A DNA stretch of 44,350 nucleotides from Lentisphaeria bacterium (GTDB taxonomy: Bacteria > Verrucomicrobiota > Lentisphaeria > Victivallales > Victivallaceae): contig JAFTDL010000252.1 of the NCBI GenBank assembly GCA_017454215.1, positions 1-44,350 on the forward strand, read 5' to 3'. Positions 9,327-24,113 of this stretch are shown here, one piece after another. The notes beneath the pieces are model-generated. The model saw nothing but the letters and a program-made list of their open reading frames with translations, searched no databases and was not told where the DNA came from. The translations under genes were made by a program, and so were the position numbers. Each line of letters begins with the position of its first letter. Position 1 is the stretch's first letter.

Positions 9327-10412
9327 TCATTTCGTGATCTCCACGGCCCCGGTGCGGCCGCTTTTGCCCGGGGACCAGTCCGGGGGCGATTTGCGGTGCT
9401 GGCGGGCGAGCCACTGCATGCCCATGTCGGGCAGAAGGTCGTGACCGCCCTCGAAGACCGTGAGGCGCGCGAGATTCGACCGGCGGCGGAAGAGCACGGG
9501 GTGAGACGCCCCGAAGGAGGGGTCCTTCTCGGGAACGCCGAACCTGCCGGGGATCTTCTGCTCGTCCGTCATGAAGGAAATGTCTTCGGGAGAGATCCGG
9601 TCTTCCGGAGAGGCCAGCAGATTGAAGGCGTTGACGGAGTGGGACACGGGGACGCTGTCGTTTCTGTCTTTGTATCTGTGTCCGTCGTGGATCCCCGTGT
9701 TGATGTCCAGCACGACCCGCGACGCGCCGCCCATCCACGTGAGGGGCGAGCGCCGGACCGCTTCGGCTCTGGCCGCCGGATCCTTCGCCGGATCGCCGCC
9801 GCAGGCCTTGCGGATATGCTCGAAATATCCCCGGCCGGCGGCCAGACACTGGTCGTGCCATGCCGCGATGTCTGAAATGGGGCACCACGCGGAGACGGCG
9901 GTCCACAGTTCGGGCCGGCGGGCGGCCATGAGCAGAGCCGCGTGTCCGCCGCCCGAGCCGCCGATGAGGTAGACGCGGTCGTCGTCCACCTTGGAAACGC
10001 GCTTCATGTAGGCTACGGCGTCGGCGATGTCGGCCACGACGGCGTCGGAACCGCAGGCCTGCGGCGTCCAGTTGGGGCCGCGGTAGTGGGGAAAGATGAA
10101 GTTCCAGTTGTTTTTGATGCAGAATCTTGCGAAGTGAACGCAGTTCCCGCCCGTGTAGCCGTAACTCCACGAATGCAGAGCCACGAGCAGGGGGCGGGGC
10201 GCGTCGCCTGCGGCGAAATAACAGCGGGCCTTCTGTTTGGAATTGTCGAAGGTGCAGTCGTAATCGACCGTTTTCAGCTGTGCCATGACGGCCTGCCGGG
10301 CTTTTTCCGCGGCATCGGCGGGCGAAGCGCCTTTGTTCTCCGCGCCTCCGGCGGAGATCGAGGCCGCCAGAAAGACGGGACCGAAAAATCTCGAATGCAG
10401 ATATTTCGCCAT
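9327..10412 (-). CDS. Exported alpha/beta hydrolase, downstream copy of a tandem pair
   Basis: This encodes 361 residues with a signal peptide (about 1-24). It is an alpha/beta-fold serine hydrolase of the prolyl-oligopeptidase or acetyl-esterase type: nucleophile elbow GGSGGGHAALL, a later Asp in NTGIHDGHR, and the catalytic His in EGGHDLLPDMG. Likely role: removing acyl groups from a glycan or cleaving a small ester outside the cytoplasm; the substrate is unknown. ATG 10412, with GAGGTG seven bases upstream, is preferred to an in-frame GTG at 10421. It lies 16 bases after the neighbouring paralogue, and the central parts are almost identical at base level, so the pair arose by recent tandem duplication or is kept alike by gene conversion. 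Confidence 0.85.
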   Translation of the reverse strand: MAKYLHSRFFGPVFLAASISAGGAENKGASPADAAEKARQAVMAQLKTVDYDCTFDNSKQKARCYFAAGDAPRPLLVALHSWSYGYTGGNCVHFARFCIKNNWNFIFPHYRGPNWTPQACGSDAVVADIADAVAYMKRVSKVDDDRVYLIGGSGGGHAALLMAARRPELWTAVSAWCPISDIAAWHDQCLAAGRGYFEHIRKACGGDPAKDPAARAEAVRRSPLTWMGGASRVVLDINTGIHDGHRYKDRNDSVPVSHSVNAFNLLASPEDRISPEDISFMTDEQKIPGRFGVPEKDPSFGASHPVLFRRRSNLARLTVFEGGHDLLPDMGMQWLARQHRKSPPDWSPGKSGRTGAVEITK

Positions 10413-10428
10413 GATGCACACCTCGGAT

Positions 10429-11511
10429 TTACTTGGTTATCTCCACGGCTTCCGTGCGGCTGCCTCTGCCCGGGGACCAGTCGGGGGGCGATTTGCGGTT
10501 CTGGCGGGCGAGCCACAGCATGCCCATGTCGGGCAGGCAGTCGTGACCGCCTTCGAAGATCGTGATGCGCACCAGATTGGACTCTCTTCTGAAAATGACG
10601 GGATACGTTCCGAACGAGGGGTCTTTTTCGGGGACGGAAAAGTTCTTCGGGATCTTCTGCTCCTTCACGATGAGGGAGGCGTCCGCGGGGGAGATCCGGT
10701 CCTCCGGGGCGGCCAGAGCGTTGAAGGCGTCGAGGCTCTGCGAGACCGGAACGGGACCCCTGCGGCCGCCGAAGTCGTGCCCGTCGTGGATCCCCGCGTT
10801 GATGTCCAGCAGGACCCGTGACGCGCCGCCTATCCATGTGAGAGGCGAACGCCGGACCGCCTCGGCTTTGGCCGCCGGATCCTTCGCCGGATCGCCGCCG
10901 CAGACTTTGCGGATGTGTTCGAAATAACCGCGCTTGCGTTCGATGCACTGGTCGTGATACGCCGCGATGTCCGAAATGGGGCACCAGACCGAGACGGCGG
11001 TCCACAGTTCGGGGCGGCGGGCGGCCATGAGCAACGCCGCGTGTCCGCCGCCCGAGCCGCCGATGAGATAGACGCGGTCGTCGTCAACTTTGGAAACGCG
11101 CTTCATGTAGGCCACGGCGTCGGCGATGTCGGCCACGACGGCGTCGGAACCGCAGGCCTGCGGCGTCCAGTTGGGGCCGCGGTAGTGGGGAAAGATGAAG
11201 TTCCAGTTGTTCCTGATGCAGAATCTTGCGAAGTGAAAACTGTCCCCCGTGTAACCGTAGCTCCACGAATGCAGAGCTACGAGCAGGGGCCGGGGCGCGT
11301 CGCCCTTGGCGAAATGACAGCGGGCTTTCTGCTTGGAGTTGTCGAAGGTGCAGCCGTAATCGACCGTTTTCAGCTGTGCCATGACGGCCTGCCGGGCCTT
11401 CTCCTCCGCGCTTGCGGGCGGTGTGCTTTTGCTCTCCGCCGGTCCGGCGCAGGAGACGCCGGACACGGCGAGGAAGAGGCATGCGGCAAGCAGCGGGCGC
11501 CGGTGTTTCAT
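10429..11511 (-). CDS. Exported alpha/beta hydrolase, upstream copy of a tandem pair
   Basis: This encodes 360 residues: an N-terminal signal peptide ending near a Cys (GVSCAG, a poor lipobox), then the same alpha/beta hydrolase domain as its neighbour. The nucleophile Ser is in GGSGGGHAALL, the Asp in INAGIHDGHDF and the His in FEGGHDCLPDMG. Differences from the downstream copy concentrate at the N-terminus and in a segment around residues 230-290, which may alter the substrate pocket or lid. It follows the lipoprotein hydrolase gene by 25 bases and precedes its paralogue by 16, giving a three-gene operon. The substrate is not evident; esterase action on acylated glycans is the best guess from context. 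Confidence 0.85.
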   Translation of the reverse strand: MKHRRPLLAACLFLAVSGVSCAGPAESKSTPPASAEEKARQAVMAQLKTVDYGCTFDNSKQKARCHFAKGDAPRPLLVALHSWSYGYTGDSFHFARFCIRNNWNFIFPHYRGPNWTPQACGSDAVVADIADAVAYMKRVSKVDDDRVYLIGGSGGGHAALLMAARRPELWTAVSVWCPISDIAAYHDQCIERKRGYFEHIRKVCGGDPAKDPAAKAEAVRRSPLTWIGGASRVLLDINAGIHDGHDFGGRRGPVPVSQSLDAFNALAAPEDRISPADASLIVKEQKIPKNFSVPEKDPSFGTYPVIFRRESNLVRITIFEGGHDCLPDMGMLWLARQNRKSPPDWSPGRGSRTEAVEITK

Positions 11512-13788: not shown

Positions 13789-14655
13789 ATGGGTACGTCG
13801 GTACGCGAGGAATACTATTGGGGCGGAGACAAGAGCTTTTCGCTCTACGTCCGCAGCTGCGGGGAGTACACCCTGAACGGACCGGACAGGGAACGCACCC
13901 GTCTGCGGACCGGCTTCGGCGAGATCTTCTGGCCGGTCGAGGGCGAGGGCGTCTTTCTCTTCAGGGGCAGGGCGTACACCCTTTCGCCGGGGCACGTCTG
14001 GTATTACCCGCCGGACTCCGTTCATGATTTTTACCCGTCGGGCCGCTTCAGATACTGCTGGCTCACCGTCGCCGGACCGGATGCGGAGAAACTCTTCGAA
14101 CTCATGAAGATCCGTCCCGGACTCAATCGCGCGGGCACGTGTCCGGTCCATCTCTTCCGCGCCGCCGGGGACGATCTGGAATTCCTTTCGCGGCGGCAGG
14201 GGCTCAACGCTCTGGCCATGGCGGTGAGGATCCTCGCCATGATCTCGGTCATGCCGCCCGAAGAGTTCCCCGTCCGCGATGCGGCCGTGTTCAACGCCAA
14301 ACAGATCATCGAACTGAATTTTTACGACCCGGAGCTCACTGTCGAAAAAGTCGCAAGTCAGGTCGGGATGCACCGGGGCAGTCTCGCCCGCGCGTTCAGA
14401 AAAAGCTACGGCGTCACCGTGTCGGAGTACCTGCGTTCGTGCAAGATCGGAAAAGCCGTTGAACTGCTCTCGTCCACCGAACTGCCGGTCTGCGAGATCG
14501 CCCGGGCCTGCGGCATGGGTTCCGCGCACTACTTTGCGAAAGTGTTCCGCAGCCGGACGGGCGTTTCCCCTTCGGTCTGCCGCTCCCGCGTCCGGAAGGA
14601 CGGGGATCAGCCTTGCTTCAGGGTCCGGGCCAGTTTTCCCAGCATCAGCGAATAA
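13789..14655 (+). CDS. AraC-family transcriptional regulator
   Basis: The product is 288 residues from ATG 13789; an in-frame TTG at 13768 would add seven. Residues 1-150 form an AraC cupin-type sensor domain (WPVEGEGVFLFRGRAYTLSP, WYYPPDSVHDFYP). The last 100 residues are two helix-turn-helix motifs: LTVEKVASQVGMHRGSLARA, then VCEIARACGMGSAHYFAKVF and RTGVSPS. No clear ribosome site is visible, so the start is uncertain and the mRNA could be nearly leaderless. It diverges from the lipoprotein-hydrolase operon, and its 3' end overlaps the convergent M20 peptidase gene by 49 bases, so the transcripts are mutually antisense there. Likely a glycan-sensing activator of the flanking operons. Confidence 0.9.
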   Translation: MGTSVREEYYWGGDKSFSLYVRSCGEYTLNGPDRERTRLRTGFGEIFWPVEGEGVFLFRGRAYTLSPGHVWYYPPDSVHDFYPSGRFRYCWLTVAGPDAEKLFELMKIRPGLNRAGTCPVHLFRAAGDDLEFLSRRQGLNALAMAVRILAMISVMPPEEFPVRDAAVFNAKQIIELNFYDPELTVEKVASQVGMHRGSLARAFRKSYGVTVSEYLRSCKIGKAVELLSSTELPVCEIARACGMGSAHYFAKVFRSRTGVSPSVCRSRVRKDGDQPCFRVRASFPSISE

Positions 14656-15695
14656 CTTTCAAGCGACGAAAGCGAGGCCCGTTCCGACTTGGCGTGCGCA
14701 CCGCTGAACCTGATGCCGATGATGGCCACGGGCGCGCTGCCCGCGGCGAAGTGACAGGCGTCCGTCGCGCCGTTCATGCGGGTGAATCCCGGCTTTTTGC
14801 CGAAATGCTCCGCCATGACTTCGGCCAGCAGGTCCAGATCTTCGGCATCGCTCCGCACCGCGAGGGGAGGGCGGCCGCTGACGTATTCCACTTCGAGTCC
14901 GGTGGTCTCACGGATGAATTTCATGATGCTTTCCTCTTCTTCCGGCCGGGTGGTGCGCACGTTCACCGTCATTTCCGCCGTGTCGGGGATCTGATTGGCG
15001 ATGATGCCCGCGTGCAGCATGGTCCCGGCGATGGAGGCGTGCCACTGGTCGTCTTTTGCGGGATTCTTCCACTTTTCCAGCAGCCGGGCCCAGCCCGTGA
15101 CCAGCTTGTCTATGGGATTGTCGAAAAGCCACGGCGTGGAAGAGTGTCCGCTGGTCCCGCGGGCCGAAAGTTTGAGATACATGATGCCCTTCTGGGCGAA
15201 ACAGATATTGTCGTCGTCGAAGTTGTCCAGCACGCAGACCAGCCGCCGGGCGGCGTAGCCCAGCCGGACCATGTGCTCCGTGGTCCGGCCTCCGGCCTCT
15301 TCATCGGAAGAGAAGATGGCGCCGATCGAGACGCCCGGTCCGGCTTCGCAGAGGGTCTTTGCCGCGCAGACGGCGTTGCCGAGGCAGTCGCCGGAACCGC
15401 GCCCGACGATCCAGTCGCCGTCGATCACGGGAGAGAACTGGGAATCGTTCTCCGCCGGGACCACGTCCACGTGGGCGTTGAGCAGCAGATCGGGCGTTTT
15501 GCCCGGCACGGTGGAGGCATAAAGTATCCTGCGGCCCTCGAGTTCCTCCATGGTGCAGACGAGTCCGTGTCCGGTCAGGAAGGTCCGGAGCGTCTCCTGT
15601 GCCCGGTTGACCTTTTCCACATCGGCCGTGACCGTTCTCATGCCGATGAGTTTTTTGAGCAGTTCCACGTAGGCGGTCATGTTTTCGCTGTTCAT
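14607..15695 (-). CDS. M20-family metallopeptidase/deacylase
   Basis: This encodes 362 residues of a cytosolic dizinc M20 hydrolase (ArgE/DapE/CPG2-like). Metal ligands visible are His75 and Asp77 (NAHVDVVP), Asp103 (GRGSGDCLGN), Glu132-Glu133 (SSDEEAGG) and a C-terminal His in FSGAHAKSE; the dimerisation or lid domain lies about 165-275. M20 enzymes remove N-acyl groups or cleave dipeptides; the exact substrate is not evident. The ATG at 15695 abuts the stop of the amidohydrolase gene (TAGATG). It ends the long minus-strand locus, and its last 49 bases overlap the AraC gene on the other strand. It may deacylate a product of the other enzymes here (inference). Confidence 0.9.
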   Translation of the reverse strand: MNSENMTAYVELLKKLIGMRTVTADVEKVNRAQETLRTFLTGHGLVCTMEELEGRRILYASTVPGKTPDLLLNAHVDVVPAENDSQFSPVIDGDWIVGRGSGDCLGNAVCAAKTLCEAGPGVSIGAIFSSDEEAGGRTTEHMVRLGYAARRLVCVLDNFDDDNICFAQKGIMYLKLSARGTSGHSSTPWLFDNPIDKLVTGWARLLEKWKNPAKDDQWHASIAGTMLHAGIIANQIPDTAEMTVNVRTTRPEEEESIMKFIRETTGLEVEYVSGRPPLAVRSDAEDLDLLAEVMAEHFGKKPGFTRMNGATDACHFAAGSAPVAIIGIRFSGAHAKSERASLSSLESYSLMLGKLARTLKQG

Positions 15696-16538
15696 CTATT
15701 TTTCCTTCCGCGTAAAGAAAGATTCCATATTTTTCTTTGCCAGCAGGGGCAGAAGGTCGTCATAACTCTCTTCCACACCGTACTTCGAGGCTTCCGAGGC
15801 GATCTCTGCGAGGATGGCTTCATCCATGCGGATGAGCTGTTTTACCGGTCCGGCGCCGTAATTCCGCGCGTTGCTGTCGGAGCCCCACAGCACTCTTTTT
15901 CTGATGCGGGGTATGCCGCAGAGATAGAGTTTTTTCAGCACGTCCCGGCGGTAAATGTCGGGGGTCCCGGGCGTGAGGTCGGCGTAGGCGTCCACATCGT
16001 TGGGCCCCCAGCGGAATTCGCCGAAGACGGCGTTGTATTCGTCGGTCCACGGCCACCCGGTGTGGGCCAGCGAGAAGCGCAGTCCTCTGACCTGGCACAG
16101 CACCTCGAACTCCAGCGGCCGGTTGTACTTTGCCGCGGGACTGGTGTTGAAAAGGATCCCGCAGTGGAACGTCACCGGCAGTCCGGTCTCGGCCACGGCG
16201 CCCAGCGGGGTCAGGATGTCCCGGGGGTAACAGCGGACGCAGATGATCTTGAAGCCGCGCACGCCCTTTTCGGCGGCGCGGAAGATCTGTTCCCGCACAT
16301 CGGGCTCCGTCGGGTCGATCCAGAACACCGGGAGAAAACCGGGGGTCTGCGAGGTGAACTCCAAAACGTCTTCGAGCCGGGCCTGCCAGCGCTGGTCGGC
16401 CCCGGCCGTCCGGCTGTGTCCCGCCGGATAGGGACTTATGACCGCGCCGCCGTCGACGCCCGCCTCGGCGGTCTTCCCGAGAAATTCCCGCGGGGTGTCC
16501 CTGCCGGAATAATACAGATGGATGTGATAGTCGTACAT
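15696..16538 (-). CDS. Amidohydrolase-family protein (TIM-barrel, PF04909-like)
   Basis: This encodes 280 residues. A metal-dependent barrel hydrolase pattern is visible: HIH at residues 5-7 (strand 1), TFHCG in the middle, SLAHTGWP after strand 6 and VLWGSDSNARNYG near the end, whose Asp is the usual catalytic residue. These fit the amidohydrolase-2 group, which hydrolyses or decarboxylates small carbonyl or lactone compounds. The protein is short for the group but seems complete. It starts 12 bases after the thioredoxin-like gene, and its stop abuts the M20 start. A lactonase or deaminase role on a sugar derivative is possible but unproven. Confidence 0.82.
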   Translation of the reverse strand: MYDYHIHLYYSGRDTPREFLGKTAEAGVDGGAVISPYPAGHSRTAGADQRWQARLEDVLEFTSQTPGFLPVFWIDPTEPDVREQIFRAAEKGVRGFKIICVRCYPRDILTPLGAVAETGLPVTFHCGILFNTSPAAKYNRPLEFEVLCQVRGLRFSLAHTGWPWTDEYNAVFGEFRWGPNDVDAYADLTPGTPDIYRRDVLKKLYLCGIPRIRKRVLWGSDSNARNYGAGPVKQLIRMDEAILAEIASEASKYGVEESYDDLLPLLAKKNMESFFTRKEK

Positions 16539-16550
16539 GGGATCGGGGGG

Positions 16551-17147
16551 TCACTTCTTCTTGGATGTCTTGCCCTTGGATTTCTTCGAGCTCTTCTTGT
16601 TTTTCTGCGCGTCTTTTGCGGTCGCGGGCTTGTAATTCGAGGATTTCCACCGCGCGGCGGCCTTGACGCCGAGGATCGCCACGTCGGTCCTGCCGCTTCT
16701 GGTGACGAGTCTGCCGTCGGGTGCGAAGACGGCCAGCGTGGGGATGCCGCTGACCTGCAGTTCTTTCTTCAGCGCGGCGCTCTCTTCGCCGCCGAAGGGC
16801 AGGGCGTACCAGGGCATGTTGTCCTTTTTCATGTAGTCGAACATGGCCTGAGAGGACTTGTCGCAGCTGGCGAAGACGATCTCGATGTTGTTCTTTTTGG
16901 CCGCCTGCCGGTGGAACTTCACCAGCTGGGGCGTGAAGGCCCGGCAGGGACCGCACCACGAGGCCGAAAAGTAGACGCAGACCGTCTTGCCTTCGAGGGC
17001 CTGTTTCGTATCGACCTCCCGGCCCGCCGAAGTGAGCAGTTTTGCGCCGAATTTTTCGACGGCCCACGGTTTTTCGCCGTCCCCGGCGGCGAAGAGGAAA
17101 CCCGAGAGCAGGATTCCGGTCAGAAGAAGCAGTTTTTTCGTTTTCAT
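16551..17147 (-). CDS. Exported thioredoxin-like protein (nucleoredoxin/TlpA type)
   Basis: This encodes 198 residues. A signal peptide (about 1-21, ending LFAAG) is followed by a thioredoxin fold with WCGPC at 64-68, next to RAFTPQLVKFHRQ, typical of the nucleoredoxin/tryparedoxin group. The cis-Pro is in VSGIPTLAVF. The last 25 residues are almost pure Lys/Ser (KNKKSSKKSKGKTSKKK), an unusual basic tail that may bind nucleic acid, envelope polymers or membranes. ATG 17147 is chosen because AAGGA is about ten bases upstream; another ATG at 17156 is too close to it. Likely a periplasmic disulfide reductase for secreted Cys-containing proteins such as the lipoprotein hydrolase. Confidence 0.87.
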   Translation of the reverse strand: MKTKKLLLLTGILLSGFLFAAGDGEKPWAVEKFGAKLLTSAGREVDTKQALEGKTVCVYFSASWCGPCRAFTPQLVKFHRQAAKKNNIEIVFASCDKSSQAMFDYMKKDNMPWYALPFGGEESAALKKELQVSGIPTLAVFAPDGRLVTRSGRTDVAILGVKAAARWKSSNYKPATAKDAQKNKKSSKKSKGKTSKKK

Positions 17148-17166
17148 TTTACGCATTTCCTTTTTT

Positions 17167-18591
17167 TTACATGTTGTCGAGAAGCTCTGCAAAGTCCGCC
17201 GCGGCGCGGGCCAGTGTGCCGGGGCAGACGCTCCCGCCGCCGAGGCAGAACCAGCCGTCGAAATTCCGGCAGCGGAGGATGGAGACCAGTTCCTTCACTT
17301 CGCCGTTGCCCTGCGCCGGGGGCCGGGCGGAGCCGTCCCACAGGGCGTCGCAGAGGTCGAGCTGGCCCGTGATCCTTGCGAAACGCTCCTGCCGGAACGA
17401 GCGGAAAGGCCTGTCTCCGGCGGCGGCGAGATTCGCCGGATTCAGACAGGCGCGGACCCTGCCGTTGAAATCGTTCACCGCCCGCGCGGCGGTCCGCGCC
17501 GTGTGGTTGATGTTGCGCAGGTCCGCGGCGATGCCCGACTCCAGCAGGAGCTCCGCCGCCTCCCGGGCGCCGACGGGCAGGATCACCCGTTCGATCCCCG
17601 CCGTTTTGACCAGTTCGACCAGTTTTTCGGGGGCGTCGGGGGAAGCGTAACAGCTCAGAGCGCTGATCCCGATCCCCTCCGCCGTCAGTTCCTTCACCGC
17701 GGAAGCGAGTTTCGCGGGCTCCGTCAGGGCGCAGGGGCGGCCCTGAATGTGATCGAGTTCCACGTATCCGATCCCGGCGGCGTGGAGATTTTCGATCATT
17801 TCCGGCACGTAGCGCCCGGCCAGCCGGGAGGATGCGGCAAGTCGGAAGGATTCGTGCTTCAGGCGGTCGGAAAAGATCGCCGCCCGCTGCCTCACGCAGT
17901 CCTCGCAGGCGGGATTGCCGCACAGGGCGAAGGCGGGGTCTTTCTTCCCCAGTTCCAGCGCGATGCGCAGCATGTCGGCGGACTTCATCAGGCGCACCTG
18001 CGCGCTGCCGATGCGCCGCGTTTTCATGATCCCCGCCTCGCGGAAGACGCGGTCCAGTCCGATGAAATTCCTGTGAGGACCGGGATAGTATCTGTAGGTC
18101 TTGGTGACGTTCCGGCCGTCGGGCGAGGTGAACGTGCAGGTTTCGTTTCCCAGATAGGGCAGCTGCAACAGGGCTTCGGCGCTGTGGAGAGAGGTGTTGC
18201 GGTCCTGATCGACGCCCAGCAGGCAGACGTATCCGCCCATGTCGGCCAGTCTTGTGAAGGGGGTGTCTTTGCCGTGGGCCGTTTCGGCCCGCCAGTGATC
18301 GCGCAGCAGGACTTCGGCGTCCCTGCCCAGCGCGGCCAGCGTGCCCGCGGGAGCGGAACTGATGACGGCGCCGGGGCGTTTTTTCAAGGTTTCGGTGATG
18401 ACGCCCAGTGCGCCGAAGACCGGGACGAGAAGCGTCCCTTCCCGTCCGAGGACCTCGAGAAAGGCGTCGATGACCGCGTCGGGGCCGCCTTCGACTTTTC
18501 CCAGACTCGAAAGCGAACTGTGCAGAAGCACTTTGTCCCCTCCGGCAAGTCCCAGTCCGCGCAGACCCGAAGCGATGTCCTGTTTGTTCAT
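17167..18591 (-). CDS. Fusion: AAC(3)-like N-acetyltransferase + xylose-isomerase-like barrel
   Basis: This encodes 474 residues in one frame. Residues 1-235 match the antibiotic N-acetyltransferase (AAC(3)/FrbF/YokD) family: VLLHSSLSSLGKVEGG, GTLLVPVFG, NTSLHSAEALL with the conserved His136 and Glu139, and the Cys-rich end CGNPACEDC. Residues about 240-474 look like a sugar phosphate isomerase/epimerase barrel: GIGYVELDHIQG, ISALSCYASPD, DLRNINHT and a C-terminal PAQGNGEV. The last canonical Glu of the barrel seems replaced in GWFCLGGG. The pairing suggests acetylation of an amino sugar coupled to isomerisation, or a regulator-like dead barrel. It follows the cyclase-like gene by 40 bases and precedes the thioredoxin gene by 19. 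Confidence 0.82.
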   Translation of the reverse strand: MNKQDIASGLRGLGLAGGDKVLLHSSLSSLGKVEGGPDAVIDAFLEVLGREGTLLVPVFGALGVITETLKKRPGAVISSAPAGTLAALGRDAEVLLRDHWRAETAHGKDTPFTRLADMGGYVCLLGVDQDRNTSLHSAEALLQLPYLGNETCTFTSPDGRNVTKTYRYYPGPHRNFIGLDRVFREAGIMKTRRIGSAQVRLMKSADMLRIALELGKKDPAFALCGNPACEDCVRQRAAIFSDRLKHESFRLAASSRLAGRYVPEMIENLHAAGIGYVELDHIQGRPCALTEPAKLASAVKELTAEGIGISALSCYASPDAPEKLVELVKTAGIERVILPVGAREAAELLLESGIAADLRNINHTARTAARAVNDFNGRVRACLNPANLAAAGDRPFRSFRQERFARITGQLDLCDALWDGSARPPAQGNGEVKELVSILRCRNFDGWFCLGGGSVCPGTLARAAADFAELLDNM

Positions 18592-18631: not shown

Positions 18632-19261
18632 CTATTCTTCGGCGACGACGCGGCAGGGGACCTGCATCACGCCGGGCATTTTCGAAAAAAGAACGGTGAG
18701 ACGGACCTGCGGAGCCGTGAGTTTCCAGAGGTTCACCGGACGGCAGACGGTTTTGACTCCGGCGGAAAAGAGTTTGAGAAAAACGCCTTCCAGCGCCTTG
18801 CTCTCGTAGATGTCCGAGACCAGCAGTTTGTATCCCCTTCCCGTGATCCACGTCACGGCGCTGTCGTCGAGATAGACGCTGCGCTCCTCCACGTCGAAGA
18901 AGTCGAGCGGCGGCTCCAATGCGTTGATTATGAGCGCCTCTGCGGGGCCGGACGCCCGGCACGCGGCGGCCAGTTCCTTCCCCGATACCGGACCGTCGCC
19001 GCTGCGTTTGGTCAGGTGAATGACATGAGCGGGAACGCGGTAGACCGACTCGACCGGACAATTCTGCGCGGACACGCCGTCGTCCGTTTCGGCGATGTGG
19101 CCGGGAAAGTCGATGTACGACCCGGTCATGCCGTCGCAGGTTATGGTGTAGACGATGCCCGTGTACTCCGTCCTTGCGGACCGGAGCGGGATCTTCTCCC
19201 GCCGGAAAGTCGGTTCGAAGCGCTCTCCCGTGAAATCCTTTGTGAGATCGATGATGGCCAT
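18632..19261 (-). CDS. Cyclase-family (kynurenine-formamidase-like) protein with altered metal site
   Basis: This encodes 209 residues of the cyclase/KynB fold (PF04199-like): IIDLTKDF at the start, a middle motif GMTGSYIDFPGHI, PAHVIHLT, and the C-terminal SDIYESKALEG. In active members the middle motif is HxGTHxDxPxH. Here the two leading histidines are Met and Tyr, while Asp and the last His remain, so metal binding and catalysis are doubtful or changed. ATG 19261 is chosen for the AGGAGAGG site just upstream. A clear promoter lies before it (19296-19324), so this gene starts a sub-operon with the fusion, thioredoxin, amidohydrolase and M20 genes. Confidence 0.78.
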   Translation of the reverse strand: MAIIDLTKDFTGERFEPTFRREKIPLRSARTEYTGIVYTITCDGMTGSYIDFPGHIAETDDGVSAQNCPVESVYRVPAHVIHLTKRSGDGPVSGKELAAACRASGPAEALIINALEPPLDFFDVEERSVYLDDSAVTWITGRGYKLLVSDIYESKALEGVFLKLFSAGVKTVCRPVNLWKLTAPQVRLTVLFSKMPGVMQVPCRVVAEE

Positions 19262-19295: not shown

Positions 19296-19324
19296 AATAT
19301 AGAGCCTGTTGCCCGATAAGTCAA
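19296..19324 (-). promoter_or_regulatory. Internal promoter before the cyclase-like gene
   Basis: Minus strand TTGACT (19324-19319) and TATATT (19301-19296) are exactly 17 bases apart, close to the sigma70 consensus. The -35 overlaps the stop codon of the flavoprotein gene. The leader would be about 28 bases with an AGGAGAGG ribosome site. It lets the five downstream genes be expressed apart from the upstream regulator, GH130 and hydrolase genes. Confidence 0.7.
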
Positions 19325-20694
19325 GAAGAGCTCTCCGATCCGCACGGGAAAAGATCACGGCAGTCAGGAGGAAACGGCGGGACCTTTATGACGGCGCCCT
19401 GTTCGACGAGCCGCTTCTGCAGAGAAGAAACATCCAGCGTGCGCAGTGAACAGCCCTTTGAAAGCGTCATGGCGGCGGCGGTGCCCGCGGCTTCGCCGGT
19501 GATCATGCACCCGGGCACGACACGGATCGAGGACTGCATGGCGCGGTCGGTCGAAATACAGCGTCCGGCCGCGAGCAGATTCTTCGTGTTTTTCGGCAGC
19601 AGCGCCCGGTAGGGAATGCCGTAGTTCTCTCCCGCGGCGTAGGCGACTTCGATGATCTTCTTCTCGACCGCCGCCTGTTTTTCCGCATCGCCGCCGCTTG
19701 CGTGGATGTCCACGGGATAGGCGAAACTGCCGATGTCGTCGTCGAAATGACGGCGGGCAAAATAATCGTCGGAAGTCATTTGGTATTCTCCGGCGATCCG
19801 GCGGGACTCCCTGACGCCCAGCATGTCGGCCGAGAGGGTGAGACCGCTCTTTGCGAATCCCGCCACTTTGTCTCTGAAAAATTCATGGTAGCGCCGCGCC
19901 AGCGCCCGGCCTCTGGTCCACGCTTCGCTGCGTGAAAAAATGTCCAGCACGTCGGTGCCGTAGATGTGTCCGAGGTTGCCCGCGCCGCAGCCCTCGCCGT
20001 TGCGGAAGAAACCCACGAAGTGGTGTTCGTCCACGGGAAGCTCATGGTTCTTTTCGGCTTCGCTCCACTCCCTGCGGCCGATGCCGTTGCACCGGTCGTC
20101 CGGGTAGCTGATGTTGTCGTACATCACGCAGAGCGTCGGAGCCATGACTTTTCCCTCTTCATCGCCGTACTCGAAGGGGACTCCGGCCAGCGCCGCCAGA
20201 TTCGCGTCTCCGGTGCAGTCGATGAAGATCTTTCCCGTAACGGCGAAACCGCCGCAGGGTGAGAAACATCTCAGCGCCGTCACTGTGCCGTTTTCGACCG
20301 CGCAGTCGGTGACGACGGTTTCGTAGAGAACTCTTGCCCCCGCTTCGGCAAGCATCATGTCGGCGGCCCTTTTGACGCTTTCGGGGTGGATGTTCTGCCA
20401 GCGGTAACTGGTTTCGGCAAGTTTCATGTCCGCCGTGATGCGCTCAACGAATTCCCTGCAGATGCCGTTGGCGAGGACGTCTTTGCCGTCGGTCATGCAG
20501 ATGATGCTGGTGAGAAGCCCTCTTGCCGCCATGCCGCCGCAGCAGCCGGACTGTTCGATGAGCAGGGTCTCCGCTCCGTTGCGCGCGGCGGCGACCGCGG
20601 CGGCGATCCCTGCCGTTCCCCCTCCGACGACCACCACGCCGGCCGAAGCCGCCGTGTCCAGAACTCTCGCGGGAAACGATACTTTTTCTTTCAT
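19321..20694 (-). CDS. FAD-dependent oxidoreductase (FAD_oxidored/PF12831-like)
   Basis: This encodes 457 residues. The N-terminal Rossmann motif is VVVVGGGTAGIAAAVAAARNG (dinucleotide Gly run at 24-29), followed by the ADP-ribose acceptor in LLIEQSGCCGGMA. A FIDCTGDANLAALAGVP segment and the C-terminal LLAAGRCISTDRAM..GEAAGTAAAM FAD contact are typical of the FAD_oxidored family common in sugar loci of Lentisphaerae and Bacteroidetes. No export signal is apparent. The reaction is unknown; oxidation of a sugar or sugar alcohol is likely. ATG 20694 has GAGG eight bases upstream and follows the stop of the SGNH/glycosidase-like gene by eight bases. Confidence 0.87.
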   Translation of the reverse strand: MKEKVSFPARVLDTAASAGVVVVGGGTAGIAAAVAAARNGAETLLIEQSGCCGGMAARGLLTSIICMTDGKDVLANGICREFVERITADMKLAETSYRWQNIHPESVKRAADMMLAEAGARVLYETVVTDCAVENGTVTALRCFSPCGGFAVTGKIFIDCTGDANLAALAGVPFEYGDEEGKVMAPTLCVMYDNISYPDDRCNGIGRREWSEAEKNHELPVDEHHFVGFFRNGEGCGAGNLGHIYGTDVLDIFSRSEAWTRGRALARRYHEFFRDKVAGFAKSGLTLSADMLGVRESRRIAGEYQMTSDDYFARRHFDDDIGSFAYPVDIHASGGDAEKQAAVEKKIIEVAYAAGENYGIPYRALLPKNTKNLLAAGRCISTDRAMQSSIRVVPGCMITGEAAGTAAAMTLSKGCSLRTLDVSSLQKRLVEQGAVIKVPPFPPDCRDLFPCGSESSS

Positions 20695-20702
20695 GGAAAA
20701 CC

Positions 20703-23700
20703 TCAATTCTTTTTCGTCAGCGTTATGACGACGGGCACGCGGGCGGGAACTTCGAGAGAGACGGCAAGTCCGCCCTCTCTTTCGAACGCCAGTTTCTCCG
20801 GATACAGGGTCCGGCAATCGTATTCCCCCGCGGGCAGGGACCTCTTCAAATCGGCTTCGGCTTTGACCGGCTTTTCGGAAATGTTGTAAAGCACCAGCGC
20901 GTATGAGCCGTCGGGGGCCTGAAACACCGTGCCGATGACCGCGTCCATCAGAATGTCGAAGTAGCTGGCGCTGTAACTTCTGTGCCATTTGACCCGCAGG
21001 GACTCAGCCTTCTGGACGATCCGGGGAGCCCTGAGCAGCCGGCCGTAAACGAAGTACTTTTTTCCGGCGGCATAGGCCGCGTAACGCTCTTTCGATGTCG
21101 TCCGGACGATCTCATTATTTCCGTAGGTGTAGAGCAGATTGAAGATGTTCCAGCCCGGCGTCACGCCCCAGCACAGGGCCAGCGCGTTTTTCGCCACATA
21201 GCCGAGGGCGTTGTCCCGCTCCGTATCGTGGCGGCTGGGCCAGAGGCCGTGCATCATGGTGTAGTCGCCGTAGACCGTCTGCACCATGGGGATGGCGGTC
21301 ACCCGGCCGCCCTCCAGATAGGCGTTGGTGGTGTTGCAGACGAGATAACCGTCCAGATGGGCGATGTTGCCCTCCCAGAAACTCTCGGCGGTGAAACAGA
21401 AGCCGGGATTGATCCTGCGGGCCCGCTCACGGAGCGTTTCGAGGAGTCTGTGCTGCCCCCTGATGTACCCCGTGCCGCCGCCGGACTCGGACGAACAGGC
21501 GGGCGTGAAGTTGAGATACGTGCCGCCGTGATTGCCGGAGTCGAGATAGGCGGCGTCGAATCCGGTTTCCGCCATCTTGACGATATTGTCGCCGAGGGCC
21601 TTCGTCCAGGCCTCTCCCGGGTAGGCGATGAGGTCCTGCACCGGATTTTTATAGGGCCATTTGATGAACTGCCCGTAATAGTTGCGGACGAGATTCTTTT
21701 TGGCAAGTTCGGGATCTCTTCTGAAACTGGGACTGCCGTCGCTCCAGCCGGTGCACTGGATATATCCCATGATCCGGACCTGATTATCCTTGAGGGACTT
21801 GAGAACAGTCCTGTCGGCGTCGTCGATGGGAAAACGGTCCGGGTCGCCGAAGTGGAAGCTCCAGTCGCGGTTCCGCCCCCAGTAGGTGAGGAACACGCCC
21901 AGCGGGTACTGGGGAAAGTCCCTGCGGAAGCGGCGCATCATGGGTTCCTGACTGTCGTGCTTTTTTCCGACGTACTGCCCCCACTCGACGATGTCCTTGA
22001 ACCACTGCGGCAGATTTTTGCGGACACTCGTCCTGCCCTCTTTGCACCAGAACTGCGCGGTCGCCCAGCCGCGGTAGATCTGACAGCCGTCGTACCAGTC
22101 GCCGTCGAAAGTCCGGACCACCGCGGGATAGGGTATCTTCCAGCTTTGGGGCACTTCGCGCATGTTGTTGGGAACGTTGCGCAGGGTCCACGAAACGCCC
22201 TCTTTTCTGCCTGAGGCGATCTCCCAGCGCTTGATGTACTGCTCCGGATCGTGGACGCCCAGATAGAGGCCGTCGGTCCCGTTGTAAAGCACGTCCATAT
22301 GCATGCTGTGCCCGGAACGGTTGGGCTGGCAGATGCGGTCCTTCCTGAAAAGCCCCTTCTCCACGGGGTTGCGGATCAGCCTGCCGTTGAAAAACGGCGT
22401 CGCAAGGTAATCGTCTCCGGGCCGCCCGTTGATGCCGCCGAGACCGCCGATGACGGGATAATCGAAGTAGAACACGGTGTATTTTTTCGACCGGTTGTCG
22501 AAACTTGCGGTGAAGACGAAGGACTTGCCGTCGCCGGAGAGTTTTATCTGCACCCGGACGTCGAGCACGCCCTTTTCGCCGCCGACGTCAAGATTTTTCC
22601 ACGTCATGACGACCGTTTTCGAATCGGCTTTCAGCGCCGTTTCGGCGTGGGAAAAATCCAGGGCGGCGATCTTCAGGTCGGCGGCGGCATCGTCGGAACC
22701 GCCCCCCCCGTTGTCATCCCGTTCGGGGTCGATCGAAAGCGGCGCAACTTCCGGCAGTCTGAGGCCGGAAATGTCGATTTTTTTGAACGTCATGCTCCAG
22801 AGGGAACGGCGGGGCTCGAAATTGATGAACTCCGTTTTTCCGTCTTTGACGATGCCTGCAACGCCCCCGCCCTGCCGCGGATGGAGAAACTTCATTTCCG
22901 ACGTTCCGCCTTTGAGACTTGCGGACGCCGCGTCCTTTTTCCCGAGCGCGGGCACGATGACGAAGTCGTCGAAATCGGCGGTCCCGCCCTTCGTGCGGAT
23001 CACCAGCATGAGATTGCGGACTTGCGCGGGAACGTTGAAGGGGATCTCGTATGTCTTCCACGCGCCGCCCAAAACGAACCACTCCTTGCGGAGGGGGACG
23101 AAAGAGGGCTTGACGCCGGTCATTGAAACGGCGGCGGAAAAACTCCCCCCGCCCCTGGCGCGCAGACGCAGTATCCAGTCTCCCTGCTGCGGAACGATGC
23201 TTCCCGTACGGCAGAAGGAGGTCCCTGTCGTGGAGATCCGCAGAAATTTATTGCCCGCTTCGGCGCGGACTTCGGCCTTTCCCGCCTTGGCGCTGTTGGC
23301 CCACTCCAGCGCCATCGCGCCGGGCCGGTCGTCCTCGAAGGAGACGTTGGCGATGGTCATGGGCCGGGGCTTCACATAGGGGGCGGGCTGTTTTTCGGTG
23401 CTCAGTCCGAGGTTGAAATTCACCAGCGTCTTGAGCCAGGCGGGATAGGTCTCGCCCGTCACCGTGCCCGCGCCCGAAAGGGCGGCGCCGTAAGTGATGC
23501 TGTCTCCGAGGCAGAGGATCCGGTCGTTGTCCCGGACTTTTCCTTCGAGGACCCGCGCCACGGTTTCGGCCAGCAGTTTCGCCCCTTCGGAAGTGAGGTG
23601 CAGACCGTCCTTCACGCCGGAGTTGGCCGCGTTGCGGATCAGGCTCGCCCGGTCGCCCGAAGCGCCGCCTTTTCCCATCACTGCGGCGTGAAAATCGTTG

Positions 23701-24113
23701 AGGATGATGCCGTTCCGCGCCGCAACCTCCGCGACGGCTTTGTTGTATTTTGCGATCCTCCGCGACGGCGGCAGACCGTCGGGGTACTTGTGCCGGGCGT
23801 CAATATAGCTGTCGATGCAGGGATTGCACGTGTTGAGCACGATGACGCGCACGCCGCTTTTGCGGGCCAGCCGGATCATTTTGCCGAAATTGGCCTTGAA
23901 CTCCTTTTCCGGAACCAGCGCACGGGAATTCACCGCGTCATTGGCGCCGTACCCGATGACGAGGACCGAGGGTTCGTACTGTTTGAGAAGCGCGTCTATG
24001 CGTTTGACGCCGTCGGCCGTGCTGTGGCCGCCGATGCCCGCGTTGAAGACTTGGACCCGGGCGCTCAGAAGCAGCGGGACACAAAGGAGCCATGCGAAAA
24101 AAAGTTTAGCCAT
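20703..24113 (-). CDS. Secreted multidomain enzyme: circularly permuted SGNH hydrolase + carbohydrate-binding + glycosidase-like domain
   Basis: This encodes 1136 residues with a signal peptide (about 1-18). Residues 19-190 have SGNH blocks II, III and V in order (NAGIGGHST 24-32, GYGANDA 54-60, DGLHLTSEG 169-177), but the Ser block (LGDSITYG, 202-209), normally first, comes after them, so the domain appears circularly permuted. Residues about 250-390 resemble a beta-sandwich binding module (FLRIST, WILRLRARGGG, DFDDFVIVP). Residues about 410-1130 resemble the large glycosidase-like DUF6259-type region: FLTYWGRNRDWSFHFGDPD, MGYIQCTGW, DAAYLDSGNHGG, FTAESFWEG. Probably an esterase plus glycosidase acting outside the cytoplasm. 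It follows the second prepilin-like gene by 16 bases. Confidence 0.75.
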   Translation of the reverse strand: MAKLFFAWLLCVPLLLSARVQVFNAGIGGHSTADGVKRIDALLKQYEPSVLVIGYGANDAVNSRALVPEKEFKANFGKMIRLARKSGVRVIVLNTCNPCIDSYIDARHKYPDGLPPSRRIAKYNKAVAEVAARNGIILNDFHAAVMGKGGASGDRASLIRNAANSGVKDGLHLTSEGAKLLAETVARVLEGKVRDNDRILCLGDSITYGAALSGAGTVTGETYPAWLKTLVNFNLGLSTEKQPAPYVKPRPMTIANVSFEDDRPGAMALEWANSAKAGKAEVRAEAGNKFLRISTTGTSFCRTGSIVPQQGDWILRLRARGGGSFSAAVSMTGVKPSFVPLRKEWFVLGGAWKTYEIPFNVPAQVRNLMLVIRTKGGTADFDDFVIVPALGKKDAASASLKGGTSEMKFLHPRQGGGVAGIVKDGKTEFINFEPRRSLWSMTFKKIDISGLRLPEVAPLSIDPERDDNGGGGSDDAAADLKIAALDFSHAETALKADSKTVVMTWKNLDVGGEKGVLDVRVQIKLSGDGKSFVFTASFDNRSKKYTVFYFDYPVIGGLGGINGRPGDDYLATPFFNGRLIRNPVEKGLFRKDRICQPNRSGHSMHMDVLYNGTDGLYLGVHDPEQYIKRWEIASGRKEGVSWTLRNVPNNMREVPQSWKIPYPAVVRTFDGDWYDGCQIYRGWATAQFWCKEGRTSVRKNLPQWFKDIVEWGQYVGKKHDSQEPMMRRFRRDFPQYPLGVFLTYWGRNRDWSFHFGDPDRFPIDDADRTVLKSLKDNQVRIMGYIQCTGWSDGSPSFRRDPELAKKNLVRNYYGQFIKWPYKNPVQDLIAYPGEAWTKALGDNIVKMAETGFDAAYLDSGNHGGTYLNFTPACSSESGGGTGYIRGQHRLLETLRERARRINPGFCFTAESFWEGNIAHLDGYLVCNTTNAYLEGGRVTAIPMVQTVYGDYTMMHGLWPSRHDTERDNALGYVAKNALALCWGVTPGWNIFNLLYTYGNNEIVRTTSKERYAAYAAGKKYFVYGRLLRAPRIVQKAESLRVKWHRSYSASYFDILMDAVIGTVFQAPDGSYALVLYNISEKPVKAEADLKRSLPAGEYDCRTLYPEKLAFEREGGLAVSLEVPARVPVVITLTKKN

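Follow-up and report, generated by a model that had tools for sequence, protein, structure and literature searches.

A widespread fusion of an AAC(3)-like acyltransferase domain with an isomerase-type barrel that has lost its metal ligands

What might a single bacterial protein do with an aminoglycoside acetyltransferase-like domain at one end and a sugar isomerase-like barrel at the other? The question is raised by a gene of a Lentisphaeria bacterium, contained in the stretch of 44,350 nucleotides analysed here (the window), one of 372 contigs in a 3.27-Mb draft assembly with a completeness of 83.6%. An initial sequence-only reading had proposed the fusion of an AAC(3)-like with an isomerase-like domain, without giving a strand. 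The fusion is real: its frame runs on the minus strand, and Pfam (for the barrel below the cut-off) and predicted folds support the two halves, which are laid out as follows.

17167 to 18591, minus strand: fusion gene, a single open frame of 474 amino acids with an ATG start and a TAA stop
17875 to 18591, minus strand: AAC(3)/Antibiotic_NAT half, residues 1–239 (PF02522, E = 3.7e-43; 6mn3_A, Z 30.4)
17170 to 17874, minus strand: xylose-isomerase-like TIM barrel half, residues 240–474 (PF01261, 25.8 bits, below the cut-off; barrel model, pLDDT 97.0; 3p6l, Z 22.0)

The protein is a member of the Antibiotic_NAT fold family with a second half of the xylose-isomerase-like fold. An AlphaFold2 model derived from 52 aligned sequences (mean pLDDT 96.0, pTM 0.90) portrays it as one confidently predicted two-domain protein.

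As the window is a single contig of a 372-contig draft, it might be argued that assembly or sequencing joined two genes artificially; the probability of this is negligible. A scan of a species-genome collection returned 117 relatives, 80 of which were kept for the counts given below, and all 80 loci, which derive from other genomes, carry the fusion as a single open frame, which in L119 is truncated at the contig end. A stop between the halves in relatives, the sign of a spurious fusion, was found in none of them. Within the neighbourhood set, 21 of the 60 genomes (the window's own included) display a full-length, stop-free match across both halves. In a tree of AAC domains the fused sequences constitute one group with support of 97/95; the tree was drawn from 27 of the 80 distinct fused sequences together with 13 unfused ones, and some of its branches are long. 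An apparent triple fusion of cyclase, AAC domain and barrel at L080 was discarded, as it is caused by a run of N in the contig.

The fused AAC(3)-barrel protein is a widespread subfamily. The closest named relative of the window protein, at 74% identity, belongs to a Lentisphaeria bin from goat rumen. The labels attached to carriers include Lentisphaerae/Victivallales, Oligosphaeraceae, Verrucomicrobia, Opitutales, Kiritimatiellota, Planctomycetota, Phycisphaerae, Hydrogenedentota, Latescibacterota, Gemmatimonadetes, Acidobacteria, Armatimonadetes, Omnitrophota and Ratteibacteria; these are the depositors' names, mostly for metagenome bins, in which binning errors may occur. A search with the barrel alone over 387 genomes of the phylum gave strong hits in 44. 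Frames shorter than the fusion account for four of these: three end at contig ends and one (G348) has a TAG codon inside the AAC half. Three additional hits are weak (E = 3e-4 to 4e-4); they sit in frames of approximately 300 residues and are the only exceptions to the rule that barrel relatives in this set are found as fusions. The TAG of G348 (locus L158, G348:C64:8305-9900, minus strand) replaces the family glutamine of GVDQDRN and may reflect a sequencing error, a decayed gene or recoding. A scan of viral contigs yielded no relatives of the fusion, and a literature search, whose reach into subscription journals was small, retrieved no description of an AAC(3)-barrel fusion.

Three features of the acyltransferase half bear on what this domain may still do.

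18175 to 18195, minus strand: catalytic motif T133-x-x-H136-x-x-E139
18358 to 18423, minus strand: shortened hairpin P57–S78, at the site of insert 1 of the minor subdomain in AAC(3) enzymes, recognized by comparing lengths in fused and unfused proteins
17896 to 17922, minus strand: Cys-rich tail with C224, C229 and C232 (79, 80 and 79 of 80 loci), likened to the zinc-binding extension of AAC(3)-IVa

PF02522 (Antibiotic_NAT) matches this half with 148.2 bits against a cut-off of 25 and is matched by 52 of 52 family members; in the window protein the match is split in two, and approximately 40 profile positions (about 39–76) are absent. The top structural match of the predicted domain is AAC(3)-IVa (6mn3_A; rmsd 1.9 over 232 aligned residues, 33% identity), and the first 29 structural matches are all Antibiotic_NAT proteins. 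A conserved His and Glu had been pointed out at the outset; they are H136 and E139, and together with T133 each is present in 80/80 loci. According to PMC8956665, the Thr/His/Glu motif of Antibiotic_NAT enzymes is catalytic.

The domain had also been described as complete, which holds for its core and not for the acceptor hairpin, which is nearly deleted. This hairpin spans 21–22 residues in 25 of 27 fused proteins, 33–34 in the other two (L131 and L134) and 35–50 in all 13 unfused ones. PMC8956665 also lists as aminoglycoside contacts of AAC(3)-IVa Trp63 and Asp67 of the hairpin, Glu185, Cys190 (to the 3-N) and Glu249, and cites mutagenesis of Glu185, Asp187 and Asp67. In the structural alignment, with the paper's numbers read by us as chain index minus 2, Trp63 corresponds to F59, Glu185 to Y168, Asp187 to P170, Cys190 to H173 and Glu249 to D231, and Asp67 is deleted. 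As hairpin and contact residues have changed while the motif has been kept, the catalytic core appears to be retained and the acceptor site rebuilt.

Among known systems AAC(3)-IVa, a Group 1 enzyme (PDB 6mn3, 6mn4, 6mn5), resembles the fusion in fold, in the Thr/His/Glu motif, in having a short hairpin and in its C-terminal tail with cysteines, whereas the fusion differs by its still shorter hairpin, by Tyr168/Pro170 in place of Glu185/Asp187, by H173 in place of Cys190 and by the 235-residue barrel that follows the tail. In the alignment C229 and C232 of the tail fall opposite Cys247 and Cys250 of AAC(3)-IVa, and C224 opposite a His; to judge from sequence, the tail resembles the zinc-binding extension of Group 1 Antibiotic_NAT proteins and forms a putative zinc site. 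H173 was considered as a counterpart of a zinc ligand and dropped, because PMC8956665 places the Cys190 with which it aligns in contact with substrate, immediately N-terminal of the zinc site. A fast-evolving member from Opitutales (L135:7998-9428) lacks two of the three tail cysteines.

Does the fusion then confer resistance? It does have the AAC(3) fold and the catalytic motif, and its nearest solved structure is a resistance enzyme, AAC(3)-IVa; an aminoglycoside-resistance acetyltransferase with an accessory barrel is nevertheless highly improbable. The window protein scores far under the curated NCBIfam cut-offs (124.7 against 420 for AAC(3)-IV, 118.5 against 270 for AAC(3)), and by alignment the features of the aminoglycoside site, namely the hairpin, Asp67, Glu185 and Asp187, are absent, having been replaced or deleted. 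Moreover, the fusion is tied to a gene of metabolic type under many phylum names. Since it occurs so broadly and usually beside one partner gene, fusion and cyclase-like partner are probably an uncharacterised pair of metabolic enzymes and not an antibiotic-resistance determinant. A precedent for use of this acyltransferase fold outside resistance is offered by BA2930, YokD and FrbF (Z 28.4–28.9, 27.5 and 27.9), named in PMC8956665 as Antibiotic_NAT proteins without aminoglycoside activity; unlike the fusion, they have a hairpin longer by about 35–38 residues in the alignment and no barrel.

The picture in the second half is one of a well-kept fold and a lost metal site. PF01261 (AP_endonuc_2) matches residues 344–451 of the window protein with E = 1e-5 and 25.8 bits, below the cut-off of 31.1. 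Diverged fused relatives reach 64.1, 63.1, 57.4, 57.0 and 45.7 bits, five of ten scanned passing the cut-off, and 10 of 52 family members match at E ≤ 0.01. A profile of the barrel alone searched against PDB sequences gave chance-level hits and no isomerase, so that for the barrel of the window protein the assignment of the fold depends mainly on models; isomerase-type barrels were retrieved by the whole-protein profile (4kw2, E = 0.0013) and by one diverged member (Art22, E = 7.2e-5). Modelled on its own, the barrel has eight strands with their helices (mean pLDDT 97.0, pTM 0.93). Its best match is 3p6l (Z 22.0, rmsd 3.1, 229 aligned), followed over the full length by Art22 (20.5), UlaE (20.1), IolI (18.7) and IolE (18.3), and Foldseek ranks YcjR first. 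The isomerase/epimerase-type barrel called at the outset is therefore upheld by diverged relatives and predicted fold, the Pfam score of the window protein itself being below the cut-off. These sugar phosphate isomerase/epimerase barrels share the fold over its whole length, but the barrel of the window differs from them in being joined, always, to an acyltransferase, in its low identity (10–17%) and in the absence of four ligands.

17239 to 17517, minus strand: four former metal-ligand positions, R359, N384, D412 and G451

The metal ligands of sugar isomerase/epimerase barrels are Glu, Asp, His and Glu. With this set, and with the columns located from alignments, the canonical residue is kept in 7 of 80 loci for the strand-5 Glu, 2 for the strand-6 Asp and none for either the strand-7 His or the strand-8 Glu. 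The terminal Glu, which had seemed lost in the first reading, is indeed lost throughout, and that observation understated the case: in the window protein all four are absent. With the canonical ligands gone in nearly the whole family, ordinary metal-dependent isomerase/epimerase chemistry by this barrel seems unlikely, as far as can be gauged from sequence. D412 could act as a substitute ligand for the lost His. The seven loci that still have the strand-5 Glu are L129, L130, L131, L132, L134, L135 and L137. Two of these, L131 and L134, also have the longest hairpins, which suggests that the loss of the hairpin and the loss of the metal ligands both continued after fusion.

Ligand loss has not been accompanied by general decay. 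E278, F396, D415, G428, E431, E434 and S437 are invariant (80/80), and N360 (78/80) and D412 (69/80) nearly so. Conservation at the active-site ends of the barrel strands does not significantly exceed that at the other ends (a difference at least as large as the observed one arose in 4977 of 20000 permutations), and the strongest conserved run, residues 428–446, covers a loop and a helix and not only strand ends.

The partner gene is found immediately upstream.

18632 to 19261, minus strand: PF04199 cyclase homologue with an altered metal motif (30.1 bits against a cut-off of 23.1), ending 40 bases upstream of the fusion

The PF04199 cyclase family, of the kynurenine formamidase type, has the signature HxGTHxDxPxH. 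The partner passes the Pfam cut-off and departs from this signature: 47 of 60 copies fit the search pattern, mostly as MxG[ST]YxDxPxH, all 47 with Tyr for the second His and 45 with Met for the first, and the remaining 13 deviate further. The window copy, aligned to 8f9x to compare the metal motif, does not conform either. Judged by these motifs, most copies of the partner appear to be without two signature histidines.

Linkage of the two genes is extensive. A cyclase profile, derived from a 60-member cluster of the same loci, hits 62 of the 80 named loci, and in 55 of these the cyclase lies within about 200 bases or overlaps, if the odd positions at L080, L129, L130 and L131 are taken as adjacent. 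In most cases it lies upstream, and in seven it directly follows the fusion (L102, L107, L128, L132 and L137, and L129 and L130, where it overlaps the fusion end). The partner is the sole PF04199 gene of the genome in seven of eight genomes checked. In the neighbourhood set all 21 genomes that carry the fusion have the cyclase subfamily, against 3 of the 39 that lack it (Fisher p = 2.5e-13), and in the phylum set the corresponding figures are 40 of 44 and 4 of 343; both comparisons ignore kinship, and the genomes are related and not independent trials. The exceptions of the phylum set are diverse. In G273, one of the four, the fusion start is cut by a contig end beside its cyclase; G022, G030 and G117 lack the fusion but give a cyclase hit. 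Conversely, in G270 and G372 the contig ends at the fusion, so that any cyclase upstream would be missing from it, and in G230 and G322 it is present with no cyclase detected. The cyclase of G043 sits at a contig end. Within the window's own genus the presence of both genes is patchy, and in five genomes of one lineage the cyclase is present far from the fusion gene and unlinked to it.

The remaining neighbours are less constant.

19321 to 20988, minus strand: FAD-dependent oxidoreductase frame, upstream (PF12831, E = 3e-108), its true start probably further in
14607 to 17192, minus strand: thioredoxin-like, amidohydrolase and M20 deacylase frames, downstream

The oxidoreductase is not kept as a neighbour of the fusion in other genomes, and the three downstream genes adjoin it only in the window and in the nearest relative (L038). 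Neighbouring genes vary between lineages; those that recur in the fetched loci are a DegT-type aminotransferase (12), creatininase (11), a Gfo/Idh/MocA oxidoreductase (10) and an APH-fold kinase (4). Creatininase, cyclase and fusion stand in a row in L108, L113 and L114, for example; these loci, L097 and L103 carry clusters of the three genes, some with a DegT aminotransferase or a ROK-type regulator, and at L135 a gene that looks creatininase-like by eye occupies the cyclase's place directly downstream. Each of eight genomes has one to seven creatininase matches. As creatininase, DegT and Gfo/Idh/MocA genes are either common or confined to few lineages, they are not taken as proof of a pathway. 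In one lineage (L077, L083, L111 and L118) an APH-fold kinase (PF01636), read as NahK-like, that is, an N-acetylhexosamine kinase, lies approximately 20–30 bases upstream of the fusion, and the cyclase is elsewhere in those genomes. Such neighbours are compatible with amino-sugar or aminocyclitol chemistry. The amino-sugar chemistry envisaged at the outset draws only on fold kinship and on a few of these neighbours (APH-fold kinase, Gfo/Idh/MocA, DegT) near some copies.

A second type of AAC(3) fusion is encoded in the same assembly, in which an N-terminal region of M28/DUF4910 type precedes the AAC(3) domain (Pfam basis, L004). Its frames are L004:1360-3654 (minus, 910 aa), L005:1-2259 (plus, 863 aa) and L006:3-1769 (minus, 731 aa), the lengths being those of whole frames; a creatininase gene comes after the L004 copy. 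Many relatives have frames of about 900 residues that match AAC(3). Elsewhere in the window, the adjacent genes at 9327–10421 and 10429–11511 (minus) look like a tandem duplication, their closely similar products sharing a GGSGGGHA motif and appearing hydrolase-like to the eye, and positions 20703–24113 (minus) encode a 1136-residue protein in which GDSL-lipase-like and DUF6259 regions are joined.

What, then, is the likely activity? The reading preferred here, to which we assign a probability of roughly 45%, is that the protein belongs to ordinary metabolism as an acyl-CoA-dependent N-acyltransferase, with the demetallated barrel completing its acceptor site and the cyclase homologue acting alongside it. 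The donor would be an acyl-CoA, probably acetyl-CoA, N-acylation being suggested by the intact motif and the fold. His136, aided by Glu139, would deprotonate an amine, which would then attack the acyl-CoA. The acceptor site would differ from the aminoglycoside cleft, given the deletion of the AAC(3)-IVa contact hairpin and the change of Glu185/Asp187 to Tyr168/Pro170. The barrel, presumably fused once and then stripped of its metal site, would complete or cover this site and bind a small sugar-like or polyol-like amine; an amino sugar or aminocyclitol is a guess. The cyclase homologue, by virtue of its linkage, may act on the same metabolite in a shared route. This reading is suggested by T133, H136 and E139 in 80/80 loci, by an AAC(3)-IVa fold in which the hairpin is this short only in fused proteins, by the loss of the barrel ligands beside other barrel residues that are invariant, by barrel relatives that are nearly always fused, by the single fused group (97/95), by the confident two-domain model and by the co-occurrence of the cyclase. 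Against it, the model scores do not settle where the barrel lies relative to the acyltransferase cleft, conservation shows no significant focus on the active-site strand ends, the possible role of D412 in place of the His would restore a metal ligand, and neighbouring genes differ by lineage.

The same observations can be read differently. Gene fusions often join successive steps, and the barrel might catalyse the step before or after acyl transfer, either without metal or with a different set of ligands drawn from E278, N360, D412, D415, E431 and E434; the invariance of E278, D415, G428, E431, E434 and S437, and the near-invariance of N360 and D412, would fit such a bifunctional enzyme. Yet the ordinary metal site is gone and conservation is not focused on the active-site strand ends, which leaves this account doubtful. 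Successive steps such as epimerisation and N-acetylation, as originally imagined, find no support in a family in nearly all of which the canonical ligands are lost. The other original suggestion, a catalytically dead barrel used to bind sugar, accords better with ligand loss, while binding of a substrate is something that we infer. It is unlikely that the barrel binds no small molecule and serves only to stabilize the protein or to dock the cyclase: the missing ligands, the conserved run 428–446 over loop and helix and the constant partner gene would suit such a scaffold, but many invariant polar residues remain, and in five related genomes the cyclase is encoded far from the fusion. A precedent for a barrel of this kind joined to an unrelated enzyme domain is, going by its title, PDB 5hmq (xylose isomerase-like barrel/4-hydroxyphenylpyruvate dioxygenase-like fusion), in which, however, the partner domain is different and the barrel is N-terminal.

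Taken one step further, the acyltransferase with a substrate-binding barrel would belong to a two-gene module distributed under about ten phylum names, in which a demetallated isomerase barrel has served to rebuild the acceptor site of the acyltransferase, the partner is a demetallated cyclase and the two make or use an N-acylated, sugar-like metabolite; this extended proposal is possible and decidedly tentative. Antibiotic_NAT proteins are known chiefly as resistance enzymes. With its intact motif, no aminoglycoside site and a co-occurring partner, the fused subfamily provides an experimental entry into the role of the fold in ordinary metabolism, and its barrel represents a clear case of a catalytic metal site lost after fusion in a domain that is conserved nonetheless. 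Where automatic annotation of gut genomes names such genes aminoglycoside acetyltransferases, it is probably mistaken.
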